Below, in pieces: positions 22,280 to 43,500 of a stretch of 64,000 nucleotides of DNA. The stretch covers positions 3,400,350-3,464,349 of the forward strand of contig NC_084773.1 of NCBI RefSeq assembly GCF_028858725.1. The letters run 5' to 3'. Source of the DNA: Colius striatus (Eukaryota; Chordata; Aves; Coliiformes; Coliidae). The notes beneath the pieces are model-generated. The model was not told where the DNA came from. It saw nothing but the letters and a program-made list of their open reading frames with translations, and did no database searches. Made by a program: the position numbers and the translations under genes. Position 1 is the stretch's first letter; each line of letters begins with the position of its first letter.

Positions 22280-22800
22280 CTGCAGCGACTGCTGTGGAGT
22301 GGTGAGGTACTTGTTGACCAAAGAGGTCTGCCGAGGTTTACTGCTGATGCTAGATGCTGTAATTGGCCTCTCCTCTCTCCACAGGCGCCTCAAGAAGGAA
22401 CCTGCCCAAACACAGCAGCACATTGACCGCCTGATCCAGACTGGGGCCAGTCAGTTCATGCGTCACTGAGTGGGACCCAAAGGCTGGAGGAGCCACTGCA
22501 GCCTGGAGCAGCAGCCCCTCCCTACAGCCCTGTGTTCCCCAGCCCAGCACCAGCCCACCTGCAGCACCAAACTTAGCCTGAACCTAAACCACCCTCACCC
22601 AGCCCAAACCCTCTGCCTCAGGGTTCCAGCAAGGCCTGAGGCTGGCCACACCAGGGAAGGGCTGGGCCGTGTGCTGACCCAAACCTACCCTTTAGCAGAT
22701 GAAGAAATAGAAGAGAAATAGATATAGAAACACAGGAGAATGTATGTTTGTGTATCTGACTGTGTGTTGCATCTTCTTATCTCATTAATAAAGGCATTGA
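22280..22800 (+). pseudogene. 3' remnant (copy 0) of the tandem membrane-protein family
   Basis: Only the last intron end, the terminal coding exon and the 3' untranslated region remain. The exon (22385-22469) starts after a CTCCACAG acceptor and encodes RLKKEPAQTQQHIDRLIQ and on to ...FMRH before TGA. This is the cytoplasmic tail of the family, nearly the same as the tail of the complete copy at 32179-32263. A poly(A) signal AATAAA is at 22787-22792. No upstream exons are seen: the matching sequence begins at about 22280, next to an interspersed repeat. I read it as the end of a broken older copy. It could be a real 3' end only if the upstream exons lie beyond the repeat, and I do not see them. 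Confidence 0.75.
22787..22792 (+). promoter_or_regulatory. Poly(A) signal of copy 0
   Basis: AATAAA in the context CTCATTAATAAAGGCATTG. The same context recurs at 28146-28151 and, with one base changed (AAGGCACTG), at 32579-32584. Confidence 0.6.
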
Positions 22801-23206
22801 AAGGAGACAAAGCTGGGGCATCTCTGTTCGGTCTCAGGGTGGGAGGCAGTGGCAGGAGCCCAAGCAGCCCCTCACACGGGCTGCAGAGGGCCCATGGCCT
22901 GAGGGAACGTTTCCTGCAGTGCCATGGCCTGCCTGCCTACCTTCATGGAAAGCAGCTCCTGCCCCCAGTGCTCAGCGTGGCGAGGGAGCTCGAGTCACAC
23001 AGTGCTGCACTGGTATTTCTACCTCCTGTGGCACAAAGACACAAAACTGGTGTCCTAAAATCAGTGAATTCTCACTGCTCTTGTAACAGTGCCCAAATCA
23101 CAGGGCTATGTCCCAGACTGTGGACTCAGCTCCCTAATGGCTGTGCTCAGATGCTGCTCCAGGGCTGCCCTGAGAGTTGCCCCCCAACAGGGCCTCGGCC
23201 TGGCCT

Positions 23207-23233
23207 TGATGTCACAGTGGGGCTGTGACGTCA
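23207..23233 (+). promoter_or_regulatory. CRE-like promoter elements upstream of copy A
   Basis: A half-matching TGATGTCA (23207-23214) is followed by a perfect palindromic cAMP-response element TGACGTCA (23226-23233), about 125 bp upstream of the copy A start codon, with a CCAAT-like GCCAAT just after it. The paralogous region of copy B (about 29080) carries TGAGGTCA, one base off the consensus. CREB/CREM-family factors bind this site, and CREM drives many spermatid genes. That link to function is inference. Confidence 0.45.
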
Positions 23234-23301
23234 CACATCTCTGTGCCAATGCACCAGCCACAAGCACCAACCTCTCAGCCCTGCTCCTCACTTTGGCAGC
23301 C

Positions 23302-23307
<6 letters not shown>

Positions 23308-23332
<25 letters not shown>

Positions 23333-23333
23333 C
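23308..23333 (+). repeat. (GCA)n trinucleotide repeat
   Basis: Nearly nine uninterrupted GCA units end 22 bp before the copy A start codon, so they lie in the likely 5' untranslated region. Copy B has a shorter run at about 29157-29172, and the dead first exon at 25968 has a run interrupted by GTA. Confidence 0.85.
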
Positions 23334-23355
23334 ACTGTGCAAAGACAGAGATCAA

Positions 23356-26300
23356 ATGGCATTCACCCACAGTATCTTTTTTGTCCTCCTCTTCCTCATA
23401 GCCCTGCATGCCAGGGGTGCCCAGGCTGCTACATGGCGAAGGAGAGGAGCAGGTAAGCAGCGGTGCTGATGCAGCCTCTCCCGGGCTGTGGGCTCTTCTA
23501 TCCAAGCAGCGCGCGTGATGGCTCTTCTCCTGATGGGCTTTAGGGACAGCTCTGTGTGTGAGAGCTCTCCAGGTAATAGGGCCCCAAGGGGCTGTATCTT
23601 GGTCCACCCACTTCCGAAGTATTGCTGTAGGTGGCCAGCTGGGAAGGAGGGGTTGGATAGCTGCCTGGTGCCAGCCAAGAAGTCACCAGGCCTCCATGCA
23701 GCTTTGCCAATTTCTACCACAATCTGGCGCCCACCACTTTCCCTGACCCCCTTCCAGTGCCGGCAGTGCACTAAGGCAAAAGTGGGTCCCAACAAACACT
23801 GGAAAGGTTTATTATCTCTTCCTTCTAGGTGAGGCTGACAGGAATGATTACTTACATTCTCCAGCAGATGTTGTGCTGAAGAAACTTGGAGATCCCAGAG
23901 GTGAGTTCTCAGTGTCCCATCCCCTGAAAGAACCGGCAATGGCAACTGGCAGCACAGCCACGTGTCACCTTCCTGACACCACTCATAGCTCACGGCATCC
24001 CAGAGGCTTCTCGGCCTTTGCTTTCCTGGAGCCCATGAACAGCTCCCACCACATTCCCTGACCCCTTTCCAATGCCTGCAGTGCACTAAGGCAGAAACGG
24101 GTCCCAACACACACTGGAAAGGTTTCTTGTCTCTGCTTCTTTCCAGATGAGGTCAACAGGAACGATTACCAACCTTCTCCAGCAGATGTTGTCCTGGAGA
24201 AACTTGGAGATCCCAGAGGTGAGTTCTCAGTGTCCCATCCCCTGAAAGAACTGTCAGTGGCAACTGGCAGCACAGCCATGTGTCACATTCCTGACACCTC
24301 TCATAGCTCATGGTATCCTGGAGGCTTCTTGGCCTTTTGCTGTCATGGAGACTGAGAACAGCTCCCACCTCGTTCCCTGACCCCATTCCAGTGCCGGCAG
24401 TGCACTAGGGCAGAAGCAGGTCTCAACACACACTGTAAAGGTTGCTCATCTCTCTTTCCTTCCAGGTGGGGCACACAAGAATAATTACCCAGCTTTTCCA
24501 GTGGATGTTGTGCTGAAGAAACTTGGAGATCCCAGAGGTGAGTTCTCAGTGTCCCATCCCCTGAAAGAACCGGCAATGGCAACTGGCAGCACAGCCACGT
24601 GTCACCTTCCTGACACCACTCATGGCTCACGGCATCCCAGAGGCTTCTCGGCCTTTTGTTTTCCTGGAGCCCATGAACAGCTCCCACCACATTCCTTGAC
24701 CCCCTTCCAGTGCCTGCAGTGCACTAAGGCAGAAACGGGTCCCAACACACACTGGAAAGGTTTCTCGTCTCTGCTTCTTTCCAGATGAGGTCAACAGGAA
24801 CGATTACCAACCTTCTCCAGCAGATGTTGTCCTGGAGAAATTGGAAGATCCCGGAGGTGAGTTCTCAGTGTCCCGTTCCCTTAAAGAACTGGCAATGTGG
24901 CAGCAGCACAGCCCCGTGTCACCTTCCTGACACCTCTCATGGCTCACAGCATCCCGGAGGCCTCTTGACCTGTTGCTGTCCTGGAGCCCGAGAGCAGCTC
25001 CATGGGTGGGAGGAAGGAACCTTCACCTTTTAATGGTCTTCCTGCGTGAAGCGCAAGTGGCTCCTTCTGCAGCCTCTGCGCAGCCCTGGAGCAGAGCACA
25101 GAGGGCCGGGTCGTGCTGAGTGCTGTGCGTGGGAACTCTTCCCCGCCAGGCTCTGGGCAGGCCACTGGCAGCCTGAGCTGCCGGAGAGCCCGGCGGGTGC
25201 CCTCTGTGTGTGTGGCCCCGGGGCACTGCCGCCAGCCAGTGCTGGGCTGGGGGTCGCAGCTGCTGATGAAGCTACTGGGGCATTTCTTGCAGACTTGCCC
25301 GCGGTGAAGACATTCCCAGCCTATCGTCTGGAGGAAGCGCTGAAGCCTGGCTGGCGGCGCAGGGGTGAGCTCTCCGTCTCTGCCAGCCTCGCGGGCTGTG
25401 CACTGCTTTCCTGTGTTTTATTGCTCTGACACTCAACCGAGTACCTTCCATTAAGGTTCTGCACCACGCAAGTCCCAGCGCAAACAAAGAAAGTTCCTGA
25501 ATGTGCCAAAACTCATCGGGGACATCCTGAAGGAGATGAAGGCAGACCACGGTGGGTTGATCTCCCTCTGCTTTGCCCTGAGACTCGGCAACTGGAGATT
25601 TGAGATCCTTGTCTCCTGAAGAAGCTGTCTGCCTGATGAGGAACAGTTCCAGCTGATCCAACTGTCCTGCTTCCTTTCTCAAGGGCCTGAGCTACGGGAT
25701 ATTCAGAACATGTTTCTGACGGGAAAAGGCTACCAGAGACACTTTGGTGAAGAAACAGTCACGAATAAAGCCATGGGCATGCCAGGTGAGTGCTGAAGAG
25801 CCCGCTGACAGGGCGGGATCCCTGCCCTAAGCTGAGGTCCCAAGCAATGCCCTGACTTACAGATTAGGGAGAACTTGCCAGTGGATGGGAGGGAGCCTCC
25901 AGGCTGTCCTGGTCCTCACTTTAGCAGCCACAGTAGCAGTAGCAGCACTGTGCAAGCACAGAGATCCACGGCGCTCACCCGCAGCCTCCTCTTTGTCCTC
26001 CTCTTCCTCATAGCCCGGCATGCCAGGGATGCCCAGGCTGCTCCATGGTAAAGGAGAGGAGCAGACAAGCAGTGGTGCTGGTGCAGCCTCTCCCGGGCCA
26101 GGGCGCTCTTCTATCCAGGCATCACGGGTGATGGCTCTTCTCCTGATGGGCGCTGGGAGAGCTCTGTGTGCGAGAGCTCTCCTGGTAATAGGGCCGCAAG
26201 GGGCTGTATCTTTGTCCACCCACTTCCCAAGGACTGCTGCATGTGGCCAGCTGGGAAAGAGGGTGCCAGCCAAGATGTCACCAGGCCTCCCTGCAGCTTT

Positions 26301-27844
26301 GGCAATCTCCACCTCCATCTGGCTCCCACATTGTTCCCTGTTCTCCTCCCAGTGCCTGCAGTGCACTAAGGCAGAAGTGGGTCCCAACAAACACTGGAAA
26401 GGTTTCTCATCTCTGCTTCCTTCCAGGTGAGGTTGATAGGAACAATTACCCACCTTCTCCAACGGATTTTGAGTTGCAGATACTGGGAGAACCCAGAGGT
26501 GAGTTCTCAGTGTCCCATCCCCTGAAAGAACTGGCAATATGGCGGCAGCACAGCCACATGTCACCTTCCTGACACGTCTCATGGCTCACGGCATCCTGGA
26601 GGTTTCTTGGCCTTTTGCTGTCCTGGAGCCGGAGAGGAGCTCCATGGATGAGAGGAAGGAGCCTTCATCTTTCAATGTTCTTCCAGTGTGAATCAGTGCA
26701 AAAGTGGCTCCTTCTGCGGCCACTGGGCAGCCCTGGAGCAGAACAGAGAGGGCCGGATCATGCTGAGGGCTGTGCATGGGAGCTCTGCCTTGCCAGGCTC
26801 TGGGCTGGTCCCTGGCTCAGAGAACCTGCCAGTGGGTTGGAGGGAGCCTCCAGGCACCAGCCCTGCAGGGAAACAGAACTTCCTGCCCATCTCAAATGAG
26901 CTGCAGCTGCCAGCAGTGCACAAGCAAGGACTAACTTTCCAAATTGCTCCTGCAGATGTGGACTACAAGAATGCCCAAAGGGGAGAAGCATATGAGCAGG
27001 GAACTCCAAGTTTGTTTTGCCCCCAGGACATGCGAAGGCGCTGTATGATAGGCACGGTAGTGGCTCTGGTCTGCATCCCACTGGCACTGGCGATCTGCTG
27101 TATCGGAATCCGCTGGTGGATCAATCGGTGAGTCCCTGCTTTTCCCCCATCTGCTTCCCTCCACGGCTGCTCGTAGCACGAGCCCTTTCTGTTCAGGCTG
27201 CTGTGGAGTGGTGAGGTACTTGTTGGCCAAAGAGCTCTGCCGAGGTTTACTGCTGCTGTCATATGCTTGAATAAGGAGAAGGAGGACACAGAGGTGCTGG
27301 ATTGAGTCCAGACATTGACAGCAAAGCTGGTGAAGGGTCTAGAGAACAAGTTTTCCAAGGAGTGGCTGAGGGAGCTGTGGATGTTTAGCCTAGAGATGAG
27401 GCGACTGACAAGAGATAGGATCACTCTCTGCAACTATCTGAATGGGGGTTGTATTGAGGTGGGAGTTGATCTCTTCTTCCTAGTAATAAATAATAGGACA
27501 CAAGGAAATGGCCTTGAGTTGTGCCAGCGGAGGTTTAGGTTGATCATTAGGAAGAACTTTTTCACCAAATGGGTTACTAAGCATTGGAACAGTGTGACCA
27601 GGGAGGTGCTGGAGTCCCCATCCCTGGAGATACTTAGAACATGCTTAAATGAGGTACTGAAGGATAGGATTTAGTTTAGCAATGGGCCTGGCACTGTTAG
27701 GTTAGTGGTTGATGATCTTAAAGGTTTTTTCCACCCCTAATGTTTATATGACACTGAACTGGCCTTTCCTCTCTCCACAGGCGCCTTGAGAAGGAAGCTT
27801 CCCGGTTACAGAGCAATGCCGACCGCCAGATCCTGCGCCACTGA
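23356..27844 (+). CDS. Family copy A (chimeric): repeat-exon type I membrane protein, function unknown
   Basis: I do not recognise this protein. Coding exons: 23356-23452, 23829-23900, 24147-24218, 24466-24537, 24785-24856, 25293-25364, 25456-25551, 25684-25785, 26427-26498, 26956-27127, 27781-27844. All junctions have AG/GT and the phases agree, giving about 320 residues. Exon 1 encodes a signal peptide (hydrophobic FFVLLFLIALHA, likely cleavage after GAQA). Four 24-residue repeats follow (pattern DY-x-PSPADVVLxKLGDP), then a basic helix-prone segment. A fifth repeat sits just before the membrane exon, which holds a Cys-rich transmembrane helix (GTVVALVCIPLALAICC) and a 20-residue basic tail. 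The last three exons come from a second partial copy: its own first exon (25968-26064) is dead and must be skipped. Whether exons 1-8 really splice to them is inferred. Confidence 0.6.
23829..24856 (+). repeat. Tandem array of 318-319-bp exon-intron units, copy A
   Basis: Four units spaced 318, 319 and 319 bp apart. Each contains one 72-bp phase-1/phase-1 exon and about 247 bp of intron that is itself highly similar between units (GTGAGTTCTCAGTGTCCC at the donor side, a TGCACTAAGGCAGAA-type block before the acceptor). Because every exon is phase symmetric, gain or loss of a whole unit keeps the frame and changes the protein by one 24-residue repeat. Confidence 0.9.
25968..26064 (+). pseudogene. 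Dead signal-peptide exon of a partial family copy (P)
   Basis: Aligns along its full 97 bp with the first exons at 23356 and 29194 but carries three lesions. The start ATG is ACG. The Trp-Arg codons have become TGG-TAA, a stop. The donor GTAAGC is ACAAGC. The upstream sequence resembles the promoter-proximal region of the other copies, and the junction with copy A intron 8 is near 25890. It shows that a second gene copy was fused into copy A by an internal recombination. Confidence 0.85.
27262..27745 (+). mobile_element. Avian interspersed repeat in the last intron of copy A/P
   Basis: Contains text such as GGATCACTCTCTGCAACTATC, then CTGAATGGGGGTTGTATTGAG and TGGAACAGTGTGACCAGGGAGG, typical of an abundant avian CR1-like or LTR-like repeat. 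It is absent from the corresponding intron of copies 0 and B, so it inserted after those copies separated. Its family assignment is uncertain. Confidence 0.65.
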
Positions 27845-28145
27845 GAGAGGGGCAGACGCCTCTCACAGCCCTGAGAGCAGGTCCCAAGAACAGCAGCCAC
27901 CACTGCAGCCTGGAGCATCAGACCCTCCCACAGCCCTGTGTTCCCCAGCCCAGCACCAGACTTAGAACTACCTAAACCACCCTCACCCAGCCCGAAACCT
28001 CAGCCCCAGGGCGCCAGCAAGGCCTGAGGCTGACCCAAACCCACCCTTTAGCCCTTAGCAGATGAAGAAATAGATGAGAAATAGATATAGAAACACAGGA
28101 GAATGTATGTTTGTGTATCTGTGTGTTGCATTTTGTTCTCTCTTT

Positions 28146-28151
28146 AATAAA
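28146..28151 (+). promoter_or_regulatory. Poly(A) signal of copy A/P
   Basis: AATAAA about 300 bp after the TGA at 27842-27844, inside 3' untranslated sequence shared with copies 0 and B. Confidence 0.65.
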
Positions 28152-28499
28152 GGCATTGAAAGGAGACAAAGCTGGGGCATCTCTGTTTGGTCTCAGGGTC
28201 GGAGGCAGTGGCAGGAGCCCAAGCGGCCCCTCACACGGGCTGCAGAGGGCCCATGGCCTGAGGGAACGTTTCCTTCATGGAAGGCAGCTCCTGCCCACAG
28301 TGCTCAGCGTGGCGAGGGAGCTCGAGTCACACAGTGCTGCACTGATGTTTCTACCTCCTGTGGCACAAAGACACACAACTGGTGTCCTAAAATCAAAGCA
28401 GGATTGTTCTCCACTGCCTCTAGTGCTGCTGTGGTTGCTGATACACCCAGGAGCACCGGTGAGCACAGGGTCGAAGTGAAGTGGGTCACACACAAAGTA

Positions 28500-28880
28500 G
28501 AAAGGCCCCTCGCTGAGGCCGGAGCGTCTGCGGCCCCGGGACCGTTGCGCTGAGCGCGGAGCGGCCGCGGCCCCGGGACGGTTGCGCTGAGCGCGGAGCG
28601 GCCGCGGCCCCGCGACCGTTGCGCTGAGCGCGGAGCGGCCCCGGCCCCGGCATCGTTGCGCTGAGCGCGGAGCGGCCGCCGCTCGTCACCACCACAGGCG
28701 GCAGCGCGCGCCCGTCAGAAATGGCGGGGCGAAGCCTTTTCCCCTCCGATCAGTCAGGGGCGAGAATCGCGGGAAGGCGGCGCTGCCGCGGGGCCAATGG
28801 GCGTGAGCGGCGGCGGAGGAGCGGCGGCTGCGGCTGCGGCGGCTGCGGGAGCGCGTCCTGTGCGCGCGCGGGGCCTGTGG
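28500..28880 (+). promoter_or_regulatory. Duplicated CpG promoter segment upstream of copy B
   Basis: A CpG-dense segment that duplicates 32970-33440. It is flanked on both sides by related short sequences (GTGGCACAAAGACACACAACTG on the left and GTGGCACGACGACACGCAACTG on the right), whereas copy A at 23030-23065 has these joined without the CpG insert. It contains ATG at 28721 and 28797, matching the first exon of the gene at 33290, but no matching second exon follows. It may act as a captured promoter for copy B. Confidence 0.55.
28505..28690. repeat. GC-rich minisatellite, about 37-bp period (first locus)
   Basis: Four to five tandem units built on GTTGCGCTGAGCGCGGAGCGG, each joined to a GGCCGCGGCCCC-type spacer. 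It lies just upstream of a CpG-dense segment containing ATGGCGGGGCGAAGCC. The same structure recurs at 32970-33170. Confidence 0.85.
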
Positions 28881-29193
28881 CACGACGACACGCAACTGGT
28901 GGCCTGAAATCAGTGAACTCCTCACTGATCCTGTAACAATGCCCAAATCACAGGGCTGTGACCCTGACTGTGGACTCGGCTGCCTGATGGCTGTGCTCAG
29001 ATGCTGCTCCAGGGCTGCCCTGAGAGCTGCCCCCCAACAGGGCCTCGGCCTGGCCTTGATGTCACAGTGGGGCTGTGAGGTCACACATCTCTGTGCTAAT
29101 GCACCAGCCACAAGCACCAACCTCTCAGCCCTGGTCCTCACTTTGGCAGCCACAGTAGCAGCAGCAGCAGCACTGTGCAAGCACAGAGATCCA

Positions 29194-32100
29194 ATGGAAT
29201 TCACCTGCAGCCTCCTCTTTGTCCTCCTCTTCCTCACAGCCCTGCATGCCGGGGGTGCCCAGGCTGCTACATGGCGAAGGAGAGGAGCAGGTAAGCAGCG
29301 GTGCTGATGCAGCCTCTCCCGGGCTGTGGGCTCTTCTATCCATGCAGCGCGGGTGATGGCTCTTCTCCTGATGGGCTTTAGGGACAGCTCTGTGTGTGAG
29401 AGCTCTCCAGGTAATAGGGCCCCAAGGGGCTGTATCTTGGTCCACACATTGACCAAGGACTACTGCAGGTGGCCAGCTGGGAAAGAGGGGTTGGATAGCT
29501 GCCTGGTGGCAGCCAAGAAGTCACCAGGCCTCCCTGCAGCTGTCCTGGAGCCCATGAACAGCTTCTACCACTTTCCCTGACCCCATTCCAGTGCCAGCAG
29601 TGCACTAAGGCAGAATGAGGTCCCAACACACACTGGAAAGGTTTCTTATCTCTACTTCTTTCCAGGTGAGGCTGACAAGAAAGATTACCCACCTTTTCCA
29701 GTGGATGTTGTGCTGGAGAAACTTGGAGATCCCAGAGGTGAGTTCTCAGTGTCCCATCCCCTGAAAGAACCGGCAATGGCAACTGGCAGCACAGCCACGT
29801 GTCACCTTCCTGACACCACTCATGGCTCACGGCATCCCAGAGGCTTCTTGGCCTTTTGTTTTCCTGGAGCCCATGAACAGCTCCCACCACGTTCCCTGAC
29901 CCCTTTCCAGTGCCTGCAGTGCACTAAGGCAAAAGTGGGTCCCAACAAACACTGAAAAGGTTTCTTGTCTCTGCTTCCTTCTAGGTGAGGCTGACAGGAA
30001 TGATTACTCACATTCTCCGGCAAATGTTGTGCTGGAGAAACTTGGAGATCCCAGAGGTGAGTTCTCAGTGTCCCATCCCCTGAAAGAACTGTCAGTGGCA
30101 ACTGGCAGCACAGCCACGTGTCACATTCCTGACACCTCTCATAGCTCATGGTATCCTGGAGGCTTCTTGGCCTTTTGCTGTCATGGAGACTGAGAACAGC
30201 TCCCACCTTGTTCCCTGACCCCATTCCAGTGCCGGCAGTGCACTAGGGCAGAAGCAGGTCTCAACACACACTGTAAAGGTTGCTCATCTCTCTTTCCTTC
30301 CAGGTGGGGCACACAAGAATGATTACCCACCTTTTCCAGTGGATGTTGTGTTGAAGAAACTTGGAGATCCCAGAGGTGAGTTCTCAGTGTCCCATCCCCT
30401 GAAAGAACCGGCAATGGCAACTGGCAGCACAGCCACGTGTCACCTTCCTGACACCACTCATGGCTCACGGCATCCCAGAGGCTTCTCGGCCTTTTGTTTT
30501 CCTGGAGCCCATGAACAGCTCCCACCACATTCCTTGACCCCCTTCCAGTGCCTGCAGTGCACTAAGGCAGAAACGGGTCCCAACACACACTGGAAAGGTT
30601 TCTTGTCTCTGCTTCTTTCCAGATGAGGTCAACAGGAACGATTACCAACCTTCTCCAGCAGATGTTGTCCTGGAGAAATTGGAAGATCCCGGAGGTGAGT
30701 TCTCAGTGTCCCGTTCCCTTAAAGAACTGGCAATGTGGCAGCAGCACAGCCCCGTGTCACCTTCCTGACACCTCTCATGGCTCACAGCATCCCGGAGGCC
30801 TCTTGACCTGTTGCTGTCCTGGAGCTCGAGAGCAGCTCCATGGGTGGGAGGAAGGAACCTTCACCTTTTAATGGTCTTCCTGCGTGAAGCGCAAGTGGCT
30901 CCTTCTGCAGGCTCTGCGCAGCCCTGGAGCAGAGCACAGAGGGCCGGGTCGTGCTGAGTGCTGTGCGTGGGAACTCTTCCCCGCCAGGCTCTGGGCAGGC
31001 CACTGGCAGCCTGAGCTGCCGGAGAGCCCGGCGGGTGCCCTCTGTGTGTGTGGCCCCGAGGCGCTGCCGCCAGCCAGTGCTGGGCTGGGGGTCGCAGCTG
31101 CTGATGAGGCTACTGGGGCATTTCTTGCAGACTTGCCCGCGGTGAAGACATTCCCAGCCTATCGTCTGGAGGAAGCGCTGAAGCCTGGCTGGCGGCGCAG
31201 GGGTGAGCTCTCCGTCTCTGCCAGCCTCGCGGGCTGTGCACTGCTTTCCTGTGTTTTATTGCTCTGACACTCAACCGAGTACCTTCCATTAAGGTTCTGC
31301 ACCACGCAAGTCCCAGCGCAAACAAAGAAAGTTCCTGAATGTGCCGAAACTCATCGGGGACATCCTGAAGGAGATGAAGGCAGACCACGGTGGGTTGATC
31401 TCCCTCTGCTTTGCCCTGAGACTCGGCAACTGGAGATTTGAGATCCTTGTCTCCTGAAGAAGCTGTCTGCCTGATGAGGAACAGTTCCAGCTGATCCAAC
31501 TGTCCTGCTTCCTTTCTCAAGGGCCTGAGCTACGGGATATTCAGAACATGTTTCTGACGGGAAAAGGCTACCAGAGACACTTTGGTGAAGAAACAGTCAC
31601 GAATAAAGCCATGGGCATGCCAGGTGAGTGCTGAAGAGCCCGCTGACAGGGCGGGATCCCTGCCCTAAGCTGAGGTCCCAAGCAATGCCCTGACTCACAG
31701 ATTAGGCAGAACCTGCCAGTGGGTCGGAGGGAGCCCCCAGGCACCAGCCTTGCTGGGAAACAGAACTTCCTGCCCATCTCAATCGAGCTGCAGGCTGCCA
31801 GCAGCGCACAGCATGGACTAACCTTCCATATTGCTCCTGCAGATGTGGACTACAAGAATACCCAAAGGGGAAAAGCACATGAGAAGGAAACCCCAAATGT
31901 GATGTGTCCCGAAGACTTGCGATGGCATTGTATGATAGGCACAGCAGTGGCTCTGGTCTGCATCCCTCTGGTACTGGTGATCTGCTGGATCAGTATCCGC
32001 TGGTGGATGAATCGGTGAGTCGCTGCTTCTCCCTCAACTGCTGCTCCACGGCTGCTGGTAGCACGAGCTCTTTCTGTTCAGGCTGCTGTGGAGTGGTGAG

Positions 32101-32263
32101 GTACTTGTTGACCAAAGAGGTCTGCCGAGGTTTACTGCTGCTGCTAGATGCTATAATTGGCCTTTCCTCTCTACACAGGCACTTCAAGAAGGAATCTACC
32201 CAAACGCAGCAGCACATTGACCGCCTGATCCAGACTGGGGTCAGTCAGTTCATGCGTCACTGA
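29194..32263 (+). CDS. Family copy B (complete): repeat-exon type I membrane protein, function unknown
   Basis: I do not recognise the family. Ten coding exons: 29194-29290, 29666-29737, 29985-30056, 30304-30375, 30623-30694, 31131-31202, 31294-31389, 31522-31623, 31843-32014, 32179-32263. Their total is 912 bp, which is 303 residues plus stop, with AG/GT at every junction and consistent phases. Order: signal peptide (LLFVLLFLTALHA, cleavage likely after GAQA); four 24-residue repeats with a shared VVLxKLGDP core; a possibly diverged repeat (LPAVKTFPAYRLEEAL); a lysine/arginine-rich exon (QRKQRKFLNVPKLIGDI); an exon with FLTGKGYQRHFGEE; a membrane exon with a single helix (VALVCIPLVLVICW); and a tail ending MRH. 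The likely topology is ectodomain outside, about 25 residues inside. No enzyme motif or known domain is visible. A poly(A) signal follows at 32579. Confidence 0.8.
29666..30694 (+). repeat. Tandem array of 319-bp exon-intron units, copy B
   Basis: Four units at exact 319-bp spacing, homologous to the array in copy A. Units 3 and 4 pair clearly with units 3 and 4 of copy A, while units 1 and 2 differ in order and detail, suggesting unequal exchange within the array. Confidence 0.9.
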
Positions 32264-32578
32264 GTGGGACCCAAAGGCTGGAGGAGCCACTGCAGCCTGG
32301 AGCAGCAGCCCCTCCCTACAGCCCTGTGTTCCCCAGCCCAGCACCAGCCCACCTGCAGCACCAAACTTAGCCTGAACCTAAACCACCCTCACCCAGCCCA
32401 AACCCTCTGCCTCAGGGTTCCAGCAAGGCCTGAGGCTGGCAACACCAGGGAAGGGCTGGGCCGTGTGCTGACCCAAACCTACCCTTTAGCCCTTAGCAGA
32501 TGAAGAAATAGAAGAGAAATAGATATAGAAACATAGGAGAATGTATGTTTGTGTGTCTGTGTTTTTTCTTATCTCATT

Positions 32579-32584
32579 AATAAA
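32579..32584 (+). promoter_or_regulatory. Poly(A) signal of copy B
   Basis: AATAAA in TCATTAATAAAGGCACTG, about 320 bp past the stop codon. Same position and near-identical context as in copies 0 and A/P. Confidence 0.7.
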
Positions 32585-32969
32585 GGCACTGAAAGGAGAC
32601 AAAGCTGGGGCATCTCTGTTCGTCTCAGGGTGGGAGGCAGTGGCAGGAGCCCAAGCAGCCCCTCACACGGGCTGCAGAGGGCCCGTGGCCTGAGGGAACG
32701 TTTCCTGCAGTGCCATGGCCTGCCTGCCTACCTTCATGGAAAGCAGCTCCTGCCCCCAGTGCTCAGCGTGGCGAGGGAGCTCGAGTCACACAGTGCTGCA
32801 CTGGTATTTCTACTCCCTGTGGCACAAAGACACAAAACTGGTGTCCTAAAATCAAAGCAGGATTTTTCTCCACCGCCTCTAGTGCTGCTGTGGTTGCTGA
32901 TACACCCATGAGCACCGGTGAGCACAGGGTCGAAGTGAAGTGGGTCACACGCGAAGCAGAAAGGCCTCT

Positions 32970-33170
32970 CGCTGAGGGCGGAGCGGGCGCGGCCCCGGGA
33001 TCGTTGCGCTGAGCGCGGAGCGGGCGCGGCCCCTGGATCGTTGCGCTGAGGGCGGAGAGGCCGCGGCCCCGGATCGTTGCGCTGAGCGCGGAGCGGCCGA
33101 GGCCCCGGGATCGTTGCGCTGAGGGCGGAGAGGCCGCGGCCCCGGATCGTTGCGCTGAGCGCGGAGTGGT
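32970..33170. repeat. GC-rich minisatellite, about 37-bp period (second locus)
   Basis: About five tandem units with the core GATCGTTGCGCTGAGCGCGGAG alternating with GAGGGCGGAGAGGCC forms. It is homologous to the array at 28505-28690 but differs in unit number and spacers. Confidence 0.85.
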
Positions 33171-33440
33171 CGCCGCTCGTCACCACCACAGGCGGCAGCG
33201 CGCGCCCGTCAGAAATGGCGGGGCGAAGCCTTTTCCCCTCCGATCACTCAGGGGCGAGAATCGCGGGAGCGGGCGGCGCCGCGAGGCCAATGGCCGTGAG
33301 CGGCGGCTGCGGGAGCGTGGCTCCTGGCGCTCGCGTGGCTCCTGGCCATCGCGGCCCCGCGTTCCCCCGCGGCCGTAGCGGGGCGGCGCATGCAGGGCTC
33401 GAGGCGGCGGGGAGCGGCTGCCGGGGCGAGAGGTGGGTCA
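33170..33440 (+). promoter_or_regulatory. CpG-rich promoter and first exon region of the gene at 33290
   Basis: CpG-dense sequence immediately after the minisatellite, ending in a good donor (GAGAG/GTGGGT at 33432/33433). It is the second copy of the segment at 28.5-28.9 kb. Relative to that copy it lacks 29 bp of a GGCGGCTGCGG-type repeat, a difference that is not a multiple of three. Confidence 0.5.
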
Positions 33441-36400
33441 GCGCCCGTAGTTACTACATAGAGCTTTATGGCCTTTTCACTGCATGGTGTACGTGGTGGG
33501 ACCTCAGAGCTCATACCGTACCCCGGGCTGCGACACTTCCCAGCCCAGGCTGCTCCAAGCCGCATCCAACGTGCCCCACAGCACTGCCAGGGATGGGGCA
33601 GCCCGTGCCAGGACTTCACCGCCCTCAGAGGCAAGAGCCTGTGACGCTCTTATTTATCTCATCTAAATCTCTCTGTTTCGAGCCATTTTGCCTTGGCTAA
33701 AAAGTCTCTCCCCACCTTGATTGTTGTCCCTTTAGGGACCTTAGGCTTTCTCTCCAGAACCTTCTCCAAGCTGAATTGGTTGGCTATAATTACAACTGCA
33801 TTTTCATTGAAACCATCTATGGAATCAAAAAGCACCCAATGTCTGCACTGCCCAGTTACATGGACTGTGTGGAGGTAACATTTCACATGCCTAACATGAA
33901 CCTCAGAAAGACTACGCCAGTGGCACCTGAGGATATGCAGAAGTCCTTGTTAATTAACTACACCCATTTAACCAATACTGACCTGGTCTCTATGCCCCAG
34001 CATGTGGTGCCAGGAATTGGAGCTGTTAACTCCACCTGCAAATGCATGTGAGTACTGCCAAGTCTGACTGCTAAGGTAATGTTCAACTGCTTGTTTTGGT
34101 GCCTTGTCTCTCCACAAAGCTACTTTTGTCTACATGATTCATAGGCAGTGTATTATTTTCAAGTGTGCTTACTTTGATTCTGCCAAAGTACTTGTTTGGA
34201 TCTCAATTTTATATATTACCATCTAACAGTTGAGGCATGTATAATTTATCTATATTTTTAACTGGTCTATTTTTAACTCTAAATATTAGCCATTTACAGT
34301 ACTGAGTACAAATATTTTGGAAAAGGGAGAGTTCTTGTTTAACTACTGAAATACATCAAGCTGGAGAAGCTGTTAGTGCTGCAAACTGCCATTCTAGTAC
34401 AAATCCTGAGGCTGTATCAATGACTGCAGTTGCAATGACATCCCAGCTGTTTCTATTGTACTGGATAAAAGTCATAGAATGATAGAATGGTAGGGCTTGG
34501 AAGGGACCTTTAGAGATCATCCAGTCCAACCCCCCTGCAGAAGCAGGTTCACCTAGATCAGGTTGCATAGGAATATGTCCAGGAGGGTCTTGAAGACCTC
34601 CAAAGAAGGAGCCTCCACACCCTCCCTGGGCAGCCTGGGCCAGTGAAATAGTTTTTTCTTATGTTTAAATGGAACTTTTTGTGTTCAGCTTCATCCCATC
34701 ACCCCTTGTCCTGTTGCTAGCCACTACAGAAAAAAGGGATGTCCCAACCTCCTGATACCCACCATTTAGATATTTGTAAATATTAATGAGATTCCCCCCT
34801 CAGTCTTCTCTTTTCTAGACTAGACAGCCCCAGTTAAAAATGCCTCTACTACAAAGTGTGTTGCAGATCATAAGGTTTTCATAGACTTGTTTTCTTAGTA
34901 TTATGTTACACTTATGTAAGCAAGTTTTTGCTGAACTTGCATACAGACAGAATGATATCCTTATTAAGGTCTGATAATTGTTTTCTTAGCCAAAAAAGTC
35001 TAATTTAAGGCCTTGATCACTTAATGCTCAACACACTGAACATGTTTCTCTACTACAACACCTTTTAGAAACACATTGGTGAAACAAGATCTGTTATCAC
35101 TACTCTTAGTCTTCCTTTGAAAAGGAGCTTAATAAATTCAGTCAATATTTATTTTCTGCAAAGTCAAATCAAGTACCATTAATGTAAACATCTGTAATAC
35201 ACAAATAGCAACTCCATCCATTACATCTTTGCAAACCATGGCACTGAACTTGTGGCAATCTTGTATTCTGAAAGTGATGTTGCTTGTCAATGGCAGAGGA
35301 TTCTAAATCAATAAATACATTTGAAGAGAACAGTTGGGATACAAAAGCACAGAACCTGAAACCAACTGCCGCAGTGCGGTCACATGGGAGCTGTTGTTTA
35401 GCACTGTGTAGATAGAACAACTCTCAGTAAAACTCCCTCTAAAAAGATAAAATGCTTTGTTAATAATGACTGTTACCTAGAGTTAGGTAAATCATGCCAG
35501 AGAGCACAAATTATAGTAGCTGGAAAATGCAAAGTGATTTGGTAGGCCCATCTAATTCTTCGGCGCAGGTGTGCAGAAATCAAGAGGGATTCTCTGTTCC
35601 TTCCTTAAGCTTTTTTCTTTTATCTTCCAGTGCTTGTTTAAATACTTTTTTCAAGGTATTGTAAACATATGGTCCATTTTCAGAATCGAAGTTTGTCTAG
35701 TAAAAGGGAGAAATTTAAGTTCAGTTGTTAAACAGATGTCACACAGCAAAAGGCAAAGCAGATGACCAACATTTATTGAGAAATTAGTTCGAAGAGTTAT
35801 CAAAGAAGGTCTGTATTTGATGATGGAGTACTTAATGCAAAGTATTTTCAATGTTATGCTCACTAGACATGAAACTAGTAGAAGGAGAAATGTCATGGCT
35901 GTTTTAACTGGTGGTATGTCTGTAAATCTGTAAGAGATTACAGGCAGCAGGATGATGAACATTCTTAATTCCTCCTGTTGAATCTGAGAAGCAAGCAGCT
36001 CTGAGCTGAGCAATAGCAAACTTCACCTGCCACTGTTTTTAAATGATTCCAAAAGCAGAAGTTATTTATACACATCCTATATTAAGGGCACAAAACATAA
36101 CTGAATTGCAATGTGGTTTCAGAAAATGATTTAATCTGATGGAAGGGTTCCAAGTGGCACAGAACCTACTCAAGCCTTTAGTAAGGTACTCACAATGACT
36201 AATTATTGTCACCACTTAAAAATTACCTTTTTCCCTAATGTGAAGAACTCCACAGCTTGGGAGTGATGCAGAGAAATGAGACTCAAGGATAGGGGCTGTA
36301 GGGACAGATTTTAATTGCCTGGGAAATATTCCCTATCCCTTGCTGATGAATATATAAAGTATAAAATCTGAAACAGATCAGCACAAGCACACCAAGTGTG

Positions 36401-37527: not shown

Positions 37528-40500
37528 AGAGCTTCAAGATGCCTGTTAAAAGTGCAGTTCCTGTGCCTAAAGGCCTCAAATAACTAGCTTAACACACGTT
37601 AACAAAACATACTTGGCAGTTAAAGAGTGAATTGACACATATAATATCTACCTTTTTCAGTAAGTAAAGTGCATCCTGTGATTCTGTGCAATTTTTTGCC
37701 AGCATGTCAATATCATCTTTGGATATAACAGGTTCTTTCAGCTGCTCTATCCAGGACCACATCAAGCTACAGAGGATAAAAGGATCTCTCTCGGTACAGA
37801 TTTTATCCCAAGCTCCATCTCGTGAATTCAGTTCTTTCTTAAAAACAAAACAAAACAGAAAATGCATCATGCATTTACTTGTGCCAGCCCTCTCCTTGAT
37901 CATACAATAATGACGAGTTCAGAGTTAAAAAAAACCCCATATTTATATTTTTTGTCCAAAACAGCAACATTAATCAGCAGTGATACATGTGATTCTTTAA
38001 AAGAGAAGGATGGCATAAACAGCACACCTCAAAACCTCCCAGTTATCTACTGAAATAAACCAGCTCTGGATTCCAGCTAAGCACATGTTGCTGGGCTGAG
38101 TTCATTTTGAGGAGAAGCAGTGGCATTCCTCCTAAATTCTTCTACTTTTGCACATAGAGTCCTCTGCTCAGTTCTGAGGAAGCACTGCTGAAAAACAACA
38201 CAGCTCTACCTTAAAATCTGTAGCACTCTTATGCTACCAGTAGCCAAGTTACAACCATGGATAACTGCACCAGCTTTCATTAGCTAGTAAAATGAACACA
38301 ACCAAAAACAATGCTCTAACCTTCTGCTAGAGACCAAAACTTGGGGGTGCATTCTGCTTGATTTTGCAAGGACTGGCCCATAACTATCAAAACCAATTAT
38401 TTACTGAATCACTGCATAAACTGGTGTCCCTGTGTGCCATTTTCAAAGCACGTGGTGAGATGTTTGCCACTCTAGGAATTAATATGCAGAGCCCATCACA
38501 CTGAATCACGTTAAAAATTACCTGCCACATTTCCACCTTCTGCTTCACTTCATCCTCTCCCAGAAATTCATTGATATCTGCAAGTGCTTTTGCTGCCAAA
38601 ACTCTTCGGGCTTCCAGACTTAACTCTGACTGCAGAACAATGTGTGGAATGGCTTCTGACACATCTTTGCTCCCTTGGCTTTCACATCCGATAGAAAAGT
38701 TCACTTTAGAAGAAGAATCGGAGTCCTCAGAGGCATAGACTCTTCTGCTATACATATTAGTCTTGTCGTCTTTTCTATGACCAATCTCATTGGTAAAATT
38801 ATGCCTTGGCATTCCAGGTTCCCTGGTATTGTGGAGAGTTGCTAGACCTGAGGAAAAGGTTCTGCTGCGTTGTACTTCTTTGGTAGAGTTCCTTCTGTGA
38901 TACAGTGAGGATCCATCTTTTTGTCCATCCAAACTGAATTTACCTTGACTCCAGAACACACACGTGTTACGCACTAAAGCTTCTTTGTTTAAATCCAACT
39001 GTTGCTTTTGCTCCCCTGTGGCAGAACACTCCTCACCACTGTTCTGCTTGTTGCACAGTAATATCTGAGCAGGTACTGTCCATGCAGTTTCTCCTTGTTC
39101 TAAAAGAAACTCGGTTCTCCTTAAATCTGAGTCACTATAGCTTAAACGCCTTTTCAGATGAGTAAGAGGCTGAAGGCATTCGACATTGCCTCTTTTCCAA
39201 AGGAGATCACGTTCATGTCCCAGGGAGAAAAGAGAATCCTGGGTCTCAGAAGTGGATGAGTGGGTGTGGGACGATTCTGACACATCACTGTCCTGCCTGG
39301 AGAGTTCTCTGTCTAGCTGTGTGGAGAACAACTGAGAAACAGTCTTTTCAATTTCAGCTGAGAGATCTGGTATATCTAACAGCTCTGCCTCTATCACTTG
39401 TCTGTTTTCTGCCAAGTCTAGCAACAATTTGCAAACCAGATGAATAAGTTTTGGCACGTGTTTGAGATGCCTACTCTCATAACCATGGAGCAGATGTCTC
39501 TGACGGGTCAGGTACTGGGACAGTGTCACTGTGTGTGCCTTGGGCTCACAGCACGCAAATACATTTCTCAGAGGAACCAAAAACTGAGTGAATTCTCTGA
39601 TGCATAATAACTGCCCTCTAGTTTGAATAGAATTAGGCCTTTTTGCTCTGACAAAAAGAATTGCTTGATCAGCACTCATTCTTGTTGCAAAAACTAAATA
39701 GCAAGCTATTAGGACACCTGGAAAATACAAAGACAAGTATTAGTTGAAGAACTGGCAGATTAAAAAATCAGTGGAATTACAGAATAGCAATTACTATAGG
39801 TAAAGGCTTTATGCCCTCTGTTATGTGGTGTTGGTAGCTAAATATAGTTGCATTTGTTGGACCACAAGATAGTAAACTCCTTGGCACTACGCTTTCAGTG
39901 AGAGGTAGCTCCTCACCCCAGCATCTGCTGGAGTTGCATGAGCAGTGAACACAGGAACAAGAGTGCCTACTACAGGAAGGACATGGGCTGAAAGATCTTG
40001 AACTGCAGGCATCCCTTCTCCCTAGTAACTAGTGATAGGACAAGGGGAAATGGCCTCAAGTTACACCACAGCAGGTTTAGATTGGAGCTGAGGAAGAACT
40101 TTTCCCCTGAGAAAGTTGCCAGCCCCTGTCCCAGGCTGCCCAGGGAGGTTGGGAAGTCCCCATCCCTGGAGCTATTGCAAAGCTGTGGAGCTGAGATGCT
40201 GAGTGCCGTGGGTTAGTGGTGGGCTTGGCAGGGTGAGGGGAGGGGTTGGACTCAATGAGCTTAAAGGGCTTTCCCAACAGAAATCATTCTCTAATTCTAT
40301 GAAAGAAATACGTGACATTTTAGTGGCTCCACCAAATCTACCTAACAATGAGTGGATGCTGTGTAAACATGTAGCAAATACTGGACAATCGAAGTGTGCT
40401 AGGTGATTTTCTTCCTATCAGATAGAAGTTGTGCTGTTTGAATGTAACAGGGAATTATTATACAGATTCAAACTTCTTAGGTTTCTGTTTTTAATATACT

Positions 40501-43500
40501 AAAGCTGATCTCCTCCAGGCATGTGGGTCATTTCCACAAGCTTGTTCAACTTAAATGAAACCATTGCCCAGACACACATCTCACAGTGACACAGAATCTT
40601 AACAGATTATTAGTATTTTCTAACCAGAGACTGGTTTGCATTATTACAAACCCCAGTTCTGTTGATCTTGGTAGTGGAGCACGTACCTGTCCGCCCAAGT
40701 CCTGCATGGCAGTGCACAGCTACCCTCCCTTCCTGCAAGGCGAAAGCCATGACCTTTACCATATCAAGTATAGTAGTGAAAGATGCCACTCCATAATCCT
40801 TCCATCCAAAATTATAAAAATAAACTAAAATAAAAAGAGAGAGAGTTACTTTCTGCCATCCCGAACGTGCCATTTTCAGTACTGTATGCAAAAGAGAGAT
40901 GACAGTACTAACATGGCATAATGGATTTTTAAATCTAACTGCATATTGTTTGCAGGAGATTATTTTCCTATTGAAATTTGATAGAGACATGAAGCTAGCA
41001 AGGATTTGTCAAACTAAAGTTCAGCTAAAACGCAAAAGGTGTAACAAAACTGAGTGATTCACACAGAAATTACCGAGCTATATATAGGTAGAGGGTAATT
41101 TGTTCTTTTTAGAAGCAAAAGCACATCTTCAGACAGAAGCTGTTTCTTACAGAGGCACTTTTTCTCATCTCACCATCATATAAAGATTCTGTCAGTACAA
41201 ATGGCCTCAGATGAAATAACCTTTTACAGTCTAGATAAGAGAACGAATTGTGCCAGAATTTGAAACATCATTAATGTTTCATGTATTGGTGAATTAATAA
41301 GAACACTTTACCTAGCTGTTGTCCTTTCTTTATCCTAAACACATGAACATAAGGCCTCCAAGTCACTCTACCTCTGCGCAATCTTCAGTAATGTTTTATT
41401 CACTCCTGATTATATTTGCTAAGTTTCACGTTGACATCCCATTTTGTGCAACGTTTCTTACATTGCTGCACTGAACACACGGGAATTCAAGTGAAAACAC
41501 CTCTAAGTGCCAAAAGCAATAATTAATGAAGAACAGCAGCAGGAGTGAACTTACTTCCAGCCTCCATAAAAGCTTCAGGAAGGTAGGTGAAGCCGCTTTC
41601 TTGTTCCAGTGGATTCCCACAGCTCGCATGCTCCCCAGGACGCTGAAGGTTAATTATGGTTTTTATGCCACATCTGAAGGAAAGAACAGATGAGTCAAAG
41701 TACTCTATGCAGCCAAAATCTCATTATCCCTTATTTTCTGAAACACCCATTTATTCTTACTGGAGAATAGATCTTTACCTGTTGTATATCGTTTAATTTA
41801 AAGAATCTTTATCAAGCATCAAAATCTATATTGAAAGAGAAAATGGATCGGGACTTAAACTAGTAACACCCACAACAAATGAGGACTGAAGTTGTTACCT
41901 TTCAAACTGTTCAATAATGTTGTACTTCTCAATTAATTCAGTTGAGGGTCGAGCCATAGCCAGTATGTTGTCTGTTATCCTGAGAAATTAGAAAAGTGGA
42001 CAATAATGTTGATACCAATAAATTCCTGGATATGAATCTACAAAAATAAGACCATCATGCTGTATTCAAGAAAGACATCAATACCTTCCTGGTTAACTAG
42101 AAATGATTTTTCAAATCATTATAGTGTGATACAGCATCAGTGACAAATCCTGTAAAGCTGACACAGATACAGTGTCCCAAAAGACCATTACTGGAACTGT
42201 TTAAATACCAGGCTAAGCAAGAGATTAACACATTCCTTTGAATAGAAATCTGGACTCGGATCTCTGTTTGGCCCTTTAGGTTTGTATGCTTCTAAATGGC
42301 ATTTGCTGATACCAACAAAAAAAGATCAGTAATAATGTCAAGATACATTTCATGTGAATACTACTGCATATGAATAATGCTTTTGAACACTGGTATGTTA
42401 TTTCACCTTCAGTAAATGCTACTACTTTCAAATTCCATTACGAACGCATTTTAAGTTAGTTTGCATTTAAACCCTTAGCAAGAACTGTCTGTAACCCAGA
42501 ACAGCATTTTTGTCATTCATGAAAGATAGATATTAATTCTTCTGGATCTGAACCAAACTTATTGTAAGGCAATAGAAATCTTTCATCATCTTTTCTGGGC
42601 AATGAACAATGGCTATTTTATGGTTTGTTAAGTTGCAATCCTGCATCAAGCCATCATTACATTTGATACTTGGCAGCAGCTGATTTTAAAAAAACCATAA
42701 CTATTTCCTTTCAATTCTCTAACAAATACAGGCAGTTGATGCAGTTATGTTTAGTGATAGTAAGTGCTGCTCATTACCAAGACGAGTAGAGCCCTTTAAT
42801 GGCTTGTTCCTGGTCACTCCACCGAGCTGGGTTTTCATATTTGCAGGCACGTCCCCCACACGCCATGGAGCACTGCATGTGGCCAGGAATGACATGGCGA
42901 AGGTGCTCCCCTACTTTTGTGTATTTTGCTGTGGGACGCCTTGAACTTCCTAGAACACAGGAAAACATAAGATTCAGCAAGAAAGCTTAGAAATTCATCT
43001 CCCTTCCATCGGTTCACCCTTAAACCGATCAAGTTACAACCAGCATAAATGAACAGAATATATATTTAAGGCTCATTTTTCAACACAGACTTAAAGTAAG
43101 GATTCAGAGGGGGGGGGAAATGATTGCATTGCTGCAGTTGTTTTTTCTCAGGGTATCTTTGGTTCTTCTGATGAAGTTAGAGGCCTGTGATATCCTTTGG
43201 AACAAAAAAGAGGTCACTTGTCCTCTTCCACCTGTGAAATCAAAACCACTTAGCCATGTATTTGGTGCATGTGTGAACGCTGGCTTCTGCTTCACCTGTT
43301 CTTTTGTCGGAGTGAAAATCATTGAATAAGGAATCGGTGAACACAATATAAAACACAGGAAAAAAGGATTAAAACCCTGGTATTTTATGCATGCCTATAA
43401 AATGTACTTAACAGATCAAAGGCATATGAATAGAACTGCCAACAGTCTTAATGAAAAGTACTTTACTTTTCTTTTCAGGGAAAGTTGCCTCCAGCTCCTC

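Follow-up and report, generated by a model that had tools for sequence, protein, structure and literature searches.

Avian BG genes form a tandem local family of type I membrane proteins with many small symmetric exons, among them strings of small repeat exons of 21 nt. The abalone protein VERL carries repeated ectodomain units that are under concerted evolution. Zonadhesin, Izumo1 and PMIS2/SMA20 are described as membrane-linked reproductive surface proteins with fast amino-acid change. We analyzed a window of 64,000 nucleotides from Colius striatus in which a small array of duplicated putative genes lies in the interval from the let-7 microRNA cluster to a PTPDC1-like gene. The predicted array protein resembles the BG proteins in the features named above. 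However, its repeat exons measure 72 nt instead of 21 nt, Pfam finds no immunoglobulin domain in it and its repeats are placed between the signal peptide and the membrane helix. With VERL it would share repeated ectodomain units, but it differs in that each array repeat is 24 residues long and encoded by one exon. The likeness to the reproductive surface proteins is one of description (membrane linkage and fast amino-acid change), and the array protein differs in having no above-cut-off Pfam match.

Layout of the array and its copies

Of the three copies in the array, B is complete, A/P is fused and copy 0 is a remnant. All coordinates given here are window positions on the + strand. Copy B comprises ten exons between 29194 and 32263 whose lengths (97, four times 72, 72, 96, 102, 172 and 85 nt) add up to 912 nt, encoding 303 amino acids and a stop. 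Exon 1 (29194..29290) contributes the start codon and signal peptide, and exons 2-5 (span 29666..30694; 29666-29737, 29985-30056, 30304-30375 and 30623-30694) are the repeat exons. They are followed by exon 6 (31131..31202), exon 7 (31294..31389) with a basic, amphipathic helix and an RXXR motif, exon 8 (31522..31623), exon 9 (31843..32014) with a juxtamembrane cysteine pair and the membrane helix, and exon 10 (32179..32263) with the tail and stop. All nine introns are GT-AG, eight in phase 1 and the last in phase 2. The model frame has no internal stop. The two remaining forward frames contain 13 and 12 stops, and the three frames of the opposite strand contain 2, 10 and 11. The first-pass annotation had laid out these exons with exact splice sites and phases, an anatomy that held on recomputation.

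Copy A supplies exon 1 with start codon and signal peptide (23356..23452), four repeat exons of 24 residues apiece (span 23829..24856; 23829-23900, 24147-24218, 24466-24537 and 24785-24856) and exons 6-8 with the basic segment and its neighbours (25293-25364, 25456-25551 and 25684-25785). Copy P supplies exon 9 with the juxtamembrane cysteine pair and membrane helix (26956..27127) and exon 10 (27781..27844), which encodes a tail 7 residues shorter than the one in B. A single P repeat exon (26427..26498) is optional in the predicted A/P transcript, and both readings are open (320 amino acids with it, 296 without). The remnant of P exon 1 (25974..26063), in which ATG has become ACG, is read as A/P intron, and no match to exons 6-8 was found in P. 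The fusion and the losses of P are thereby resolved beyond the earlier description of a chimeric copy. The last A/P intron contains part of an interspersed repeat (27469..27632; 71% to 40011-40174), which we take to be CR1.

Copy 0 retains only a last exon (22385..22469), open over 27 codons and a stop (22386-22469). It carries 3' flank and matches B at 94% over 181 of 421 query bases. The 3' ends of all three copies have in common a 32-base stretch containing AATAAA in which one base differs (3 matches, 0 expected). The polyadenylation signal candidate of B lies at 32579..32584, those of the rest of the array at 22787 and 28146.

When the 1.21-Gb assembly was searched for relatives, neither nucleotide nor protein searches, in which only the best candidates were scored and match counts are lower bounds, gave a significant match outside the locus. 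At the protein level, all 22 of the 22 matches listed fall here. At the level of sequence, the family thus has a single-locus distribution within the C. striatus assembly, and we rejected a dispersed repeat or mobile-element derived gene, as significant matches are confined to the array locus.

Features of the predicted protein

The array would encode a single-pass type I membrane protein of the secretory pathway. Its predicted architecture, a signal peptide, four 24-residue repeats, a basic segment, a single membrane helix and a short tail, agrees with that first proposed for the locus. In copy B the signal peptide has a hydropathy of 1.86 (residues 3-21) and an AXA-type end, read by eye, which suggests cleavage after GAQA. 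The one further membrane helix is predicted at residues 248-266 (KD 2.74), with the short tail behind it. The repeats and the basic segment would lie on the outer side and the protein at the cell surface. A structure prediction had been proposed as a check, and AlphaFold2, run on single exons, returned a helix each for exon 9 (residues 24-57 of 58, mean pLDDT 74.7, covering the membrane segment) and exon 7 (residues 17-30 of 32, mean pLDDT 83).

The claim that the protein matches no known family stood up in Pfam, NCBIfam and PDB. The best Pfam score was 16.5 bits (E 0.0063) against a cut-off of 31.5, and the best score among the NCBIfam prokaryote models was 12.5 against 60. Names from these weak matches were dropped, as all fall below cut-off. 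A PDB sequence search gave no match, and the best values from a two-row profile (E 0.44 and 1.1) were set aside as non-credible.

Exon 7 has a net charge of +6 and a hydrophobic moment of 0.62, although the tail equals that moment. Together with its predicted helix and the only RXXR motif of the B protein (RKQR, residue 161), which would be the cut site, this fits a secreted-peptide precursor. Such a precursor would free a cationic amphipathic helix, and perhaps the repeats, for host defence or signalling and use the membrane part as an anchor. KK pairs in 2 of the 4 B repeats could be counted in its favour, but they are internal to repeats 1 and 3 and differently placed; the repeats lack RXXR, their borders carry no regular cleavage site and Pfam gives no peptide-precursor match. 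We regard a peptide precursor as quite unlikely.

Coding potential and homogenization of the copies

We asked how far the open frames reflect coding. The 232 non-redundant codons of B were open in 0 of 5,000 mononucleotide shuffles and in 0 of 5,000 sequences joined at random from pieces of four other stretches of the window, the latter a control that is easily beaten because these stretches, judged on parts of them, appear poorer in G+C. Codon-position bias in B was reached in 5,000 shuffles by 91 for G1-G2, by 520 for R1-R3 and by 21 for both; these tests, like those of openness, take the exons as picked, and open ones may have been selected by the reader. The nine repeat exons contain gaps in 0 of 72 columns, their flanks in 10 of 250. 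Over whole blocks, indels did not distinguish exons from other sequence (4 versus 22 events, Fisher p 0.48), a count that takes in the misaligned P block and a last-exon deletion; between A and B without P the numbers were 0 and 5 (p 0.35). As exon 8 is absent from P, its block was spoiled for the exon/intron comparison, which used the other blocks and P exon 9.

Across 26 substitutions the membrane exon kept its frame, its hydrophobicity and four cysteines, against 119 and 29 of 20,000 random placements, with the cysteine and hydropathy criteria picked after the sequence had been seen. For exon 1 the same comparison was weak (713 and 3,881 of 20,000). Openness by itself is weak evidence because 14% of random placements in the concatenated set carry no stop. 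Silent changes were not in excess: the concatenated set has 12.5 of 56, compared with a random mean of 15.0, and 83% of simulations gave as many silent changes as observed or more. When the membrane exon was read in two wrong frames as a control, the outcome was similar (66% and 67%). This lack of silent-change excess would reflect fast evolution or weak constraint, and the near-neutral replacement counts fit the former. By the Nei-Gojobori method, dN was below dS in 29 of 36 repeat pairs, which are not independent of each other.

From intron 5 to exon 8, copies A and B diverge by 0.6% over 936 sites and differ once in the 270 nt of exons 6-8, so this stretch was recently homogenized, as judged from the alignment. 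Since 1 of 342 nt differs in exons 5-8, A and B are not independent tests.

This near-identity is also what a decaying family would show, in which an ancestral coding gene has left pseudogenes or untranslated transcripts whose open frames reflect recent duplication and conversion. The missing ATG and exons 6-8 of P, the reduction of copy 0 to one exon and the lack of silent-change excess point the same way. However, copy B is fully intact, the P-derived membrane exon is open and retains helix and cysteines at 15% divergence from B, and an open frame with GT-AG sites persists in the P repeat, which ranks with the most divergent of the nine. We regard decay as unlikely; if not expressed, the array would be of minor interest, as a decaying family that is well preserved. 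A non-coding tandem array or mobile-element derived sequence mimicking exons, to which the 319-bp tandem units, the minisatellites and again the silent changes might point, seems highly improbable given ten phase-consistent exons, a signal peptide, a membrane helix, poly(A) signals and the confinement of significant matches to one locus.

The array genes are thus likely protein-coding. We consider it probable that the three copies are a local tandem-duplicated gene array encoding a type I protein of the secretory pathway that crosses the membrane once. This reading is supported by the open, phase-consistent model, the shuffle results, the gap columns, the constancy of the membrane exon and the predicted helices, as well as by the common AATAAA end, the single locus, the near-neutral replacement counts and a CRE-like dyad at A and B.

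Possible function and origin of the candidate promoter regions

Repeat exons have equal phases on both sides, so repeat number can shift in whole 24-residue steps with the frame intact. Unequal exchange or exon skipping would alter repeat number in such units and, together with duplication and gene conversion, could bring about rapid ectodomain change, as would suit a surface protein engaged in a contest over recognition. The gene product may accordingly be pictured as a rapidly evolving surface protein. Its likeliest setting is, speculatively and with considerable doubt, sperm; an epithelial or immune surface comes next and is improbable. As to gamete expression, the CRE-like dyad would be a weak pointer. 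If expressed, the array would add to a much-studied locus an orphan gene for a membrane protein, whose repeat number can change exon by exon and which bears traces of recent gene conversion, and it would be a useful case for watching the birth of new surface proteins.

Two CpG-rich blocks accompany the array, one upstream of copy B (28470..28900; CpG o/e 1.19, GC 0.75) and one at its right end (32940..33440; CpG o/e 1.14). Within them, 28708-28816 and 33202-33307 match the let-7 CpG island of the window in inverted orientation (72% and 71%), a resemblance that the first-pass annotation did not contain. What the blocks have in common with this island, the presumed let-7a-1/f-1/d CpG-island promoter, is about 110 bp with a CCAAT element. 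They differ in being inverted and shorter and in containing a 37-bp minisatellite, as in the block upstream of B, and the left block faces the coding array, not the miRNAs. When the genome was searched with the block beside B, no match at E <= 0.001 turned up beyond both blocks and the let-7 island.

It is conceivable, though rather unlikely, that a lineage-born family of recognition receptors arose in the let-7/PTPDC1 interval and took over the let-7 promoter, copied in inverted orientation, as its CpG-island promoter. A conserved developmental miRNA promoter would then have been the seed of a new surface-protein gene that evolves fast and whose exon-encoded repeat ectodomain can expand. The likeness of the blocks to the let-7 island makes the origin of the array's expression testable.

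That the island of the window is the let-7 promoter would follow by analogy with mouse, as presented in passages of PMC6660310. According to the same passages, the mouse let-7 CpG island is flanked by Zfp169 and Ptpdc1, and RNA-seq of the samples used there gave no further opposite-strand transcript at the island. The view that no such gene cluster is known at the mammalian let-7/PTPDC1 position is borne out in part, namely for mouse and to the extent of these passages. Passages of PMC7931589 deal with miRNA targets and not with the locus. Literature queries by neighbour gene and topic found no name for the family, which, being nameless, is not thereby established as absent from print; it may already be predicted in bird annotations under an uncharacterised locus name.

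The array gene would be transcribed from candidate promoters upstream of A and B. A sigma-70 promoter scan was set aside, as it models bacterial promoters. TGACGTCA alone has a chance expectation of 0.35 per window, and 29 of 100 shuffles contained a CRE octamer by chance. Upstream of copy A, TGATGTCA and TGACGTCA form an inverted pair of CRE-like octamers at 23207..23235, and the corresponding dyad of copy B, with TGAGGTCA as its second site, lies at 29057..29085.

Exon anatomy and predicted product of the array copies

Copy B, the complete member of the tandem array, comprises ten exons at 29194-29290, 29666-29737, 29985-30056, 30304-30375, 30623-30694, 31131-31202, 31294-31389, 31522-31623, 31843-32014 and 32179-32263. 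All nine introns are GT-AG, eight in phase 1 and the last in phase 2. The 303-residue product is read without an internal stop; the remaining forward frames contain 13 and 12 stops, and the reverse ones 2, 10 and 11. The fused copy A/P takes exons 1-8 from copy A and exons 9-10 plus an optional repeat exon (26427-26498) from copy P, and is open in both readings (296 or 320 residues). Exons 6-8 of the family were not matched in P, whose exon 1 starts with ACG. Because intron 8 of A continues, as judged by eye, into the 5' part of the first exon of P near 25.9 kb, we infer that A/P arose by fusion with loss of A exons 9-10 and of the P promoter. Copy 0, a 3' remnant, consists of one last exon (22385-22469) and 3' flank. 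A 32-base stretch containing AATAAA, with one variable base, is common to the three 3' ends (three matches, none expected). The recomputed coordinates, GT-AG borders and open frames confirm the exon layout, splice sites and phases that the first-pass annotation had proposed.

The predicted protein starts with a signal-peptide-like segment with an AXA-type end (residues 1-24), followed by four 24-residue repeats in which Y8, P12, L17, L20 and P23 are invariant in 9/9 array repeats (one further comparison covered 8/9). Exon 7 carries a net charge of +6 and an amphipathic helix; AlphaFold2, run on this exon alone, placed a helix at residues 17-30 of 32 (mean pLDDT 83). Exon 9 encodes a cysteine pair, eight residues apart, ahead of a long helix modeled at residues 24-57 of 58 (mean pLDDT 74.7; blocks preceding the helix average 54-64). 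The protein contains one RXXR motif, and a search of it for N-glycosylation sequons found none. Sequence and single-exon models agree with the architecture claimed at first pass: signal peptide, four repeats, basic helix and membrane helix.

The claim that no known family is matched also held in the libraries compared. Pfam gave no credible family, its best score of 16.5 bits (E 0.0063) falling short of the cut-off of 31.5, nor did PDB or NCBIfam give a credible match to the array protein, NCBIfam being a weak test because its models are prokaryotic. Searches of the bird's own genome score the best candidates alone, so their counts are lower bounds. With the 303-residue query, at least 22 matches had an E value of 10 or lower, and all 22 of those listed lie in the array. 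At least three matches to the DNA of exons 9-10 and at least four to a promoter-proximal segment were found, all listed ones again in the array. The A/P end gave at least seven: three in the array, and four in other parts of the genome (E 0.23 to 1.95) that we regard as chance. No intronless copy was among the matches listed. An unrecognised repeat-exon family of type I membrane proteins is supported by the predicted anatomy and moderately by constraint.

Coding signal and strength of constraint

In favour of coding, none of 5,000 shuffles over the 232 non-redundant codons remained open, nor did any of 5,000 sequences assembled from fragments of four other stretches of the window. The codon-position bias of this frame was matched by shuffles in 91/5,000 (G1-G2), 520/5,000 (R1-R3) and 21/5,000 (both) cases. 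The nine repeat exons have gaps in 0/72 columns compared with 10/250 in their flanks, and comparison of the P and B membrane exons shows 26 differences over 172 sites and no indel. When these 26 changes were re-placed at random, an open frame with at least equal hydropathy and four cysteines was kept in 119/20,000 trials in one direction and 29/20,000 in the reverse direction; dropping the cysteine criterion raised this to 480 and 123, and requiring just an open frame to 9,580 and 4,475. The corresponding test of exon 1 (start codon, hydropathy) was weak, with 713 and 3,881 of 20,000.

Among 36 non-independent repeat pairs (Nei-Gojobori), dN was below dS in 29, above it in 6 and equal in 1; dN and dS were 0.16 and 0.20 in the membrane exon, and 0.10 and 0.09 in exon 1. 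Among the repeats, 11/23, 11/24 and 8/24 of the sites at codon positions 1, 2 and 3 are variable. Speaking against coding, the concatenated set had no silent excess under the observed change spectrum (12.5 silent changes, 15.0 at random), two wrong-frame controls of this test resembled the true frame, and whole-block indel counts did not separate exons from the rest. Taken together, these results place the array protein under weak or shifting constraint. A family in decay is a less likely alternative.

The protein would be expected to pass through the secretory pathway, its repeats and basic segment lying on the outer side of the membrane and a tail of about 30 residues on the inner side, and its symmetric phase-1 exons would let repeat number vary without frameshift. 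It would most likely be a fast-evolving recognition protein of the cell surface, with sperm as first candidate setting. An inverted pair of CRE-like octamers lies upstream of A (TGATGTCA and TGACGTCA) and of B (TGATGTCA and TGAGGTCA), but since chance alone would give 0.35 perfect octamers per window, this candidate pair is weak evidence. CREM-tau is described as active in spermatids in PMC3091680.

Duplication history

Between intron 5 and a point shortly beyond exon 8, A and B are 0.6% apart over 936 sites, whereas the difference between A/P and B amounts to 9-15% in exon 1, in repeat exons 2-3 and in the membrane exon. This contrast is the pattern of a recent gene conversion or exchange over an older duplication. 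Copy 0 differs from B by 2% in the 3' untranslated part and at 6/85 sites in the last exon, where replacements account for 5/6 differences (81 bases counted); intron 9 differs more than this exon (29/135). The last exons of A/P and B are 34-44% different by alignment, compared with about 9-12% in the 3' flank. In the repeat units, variability is 0.27 in the first third of the exon and 0.03 directly after; exon acceleration is not established, as parts of the upstream intron reach 0.35-0.40.

CpG-rich blocks and neighbours

The window lies at C17:3400350-3464349 of the assembly (1.21 Gb, 191 contigs) and has no N. Three let-7 hairpins occupy 11.5-13.1 kb on the minus strand, beside a CpG island at about 19.1-20.4 kb (CpG o/e 0.90). 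On the other side of the array, also on the minus strand, lies a phosphatase gene that we take to be PTPDC1: frame 40610-41008 scores 29.5 bits with Y_phosphatase, where the cut-off is 20.9, and 33.7 with Tc-R-P, a related model with a cut-off of 27, and the longer frame 38387-39739 matches DSPc only, below threshold. In mouse, the let-7a-1/f-1/d precursor is driven by a CpG island and flanked by Zfp169 and Ptpdc1, according to PMC6660310.

Two CpG-rich blocks, upstream of B (28470-28900, o/e 1.19) and at the array end (32940-33440, o/e 1.14), stand out from four other stretches of the array (0.07, 0.14 and 0.16 in three of them; 0.51 in 25000-25400). Compared with the whole genome, 28646-28880 gave three matches and no fourth with E no higher than 0.001: the query itself, the block at the right (92%) and, on the opposite strand, the let-7 island (72%, E 6e-6); as the search omits very common words, further weak relatives may exist. 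Locally, 28708-28816 matches 20140-20026 with 55.4 bits and 33202-33307 matches 20140-20028 with 49.1 bits, so that about 110 bp, inverted, are common to blocks and island. As controls, the best of 300 dinucleotide-shuffled versions of the B block reached 40.1 bits and the CpG island at 57.3-58.5 kb gave 35.6. The block upstream of B has the same orientation relative to B as the island has to let-7. Descent of the blocks from the let-7 island by local inverted duplication is plausible.

A 37-bp G+C-rich minisatellite is present in 4.6 copies at 28511-28679 and 5.6 copies at 32970-33173. Interspersed repeats, presumably CR1 and, like the genome size, suggestive of a bird, include a pair at 27469-27632 and 40011-40174 (71% alike), one of them within the final A/P intron. 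G+C falls from 0.73 to 0.50 to 0.37 in three 500-base steps (33000-34499) where the array ends on the right. Right of the last CpG block, 33735-34050 gave nothing in Pfam at E up to 0.1 and has itself as sole genome match; frames are open on both strands, and by eye the plus-strand frame has splice-like ends.
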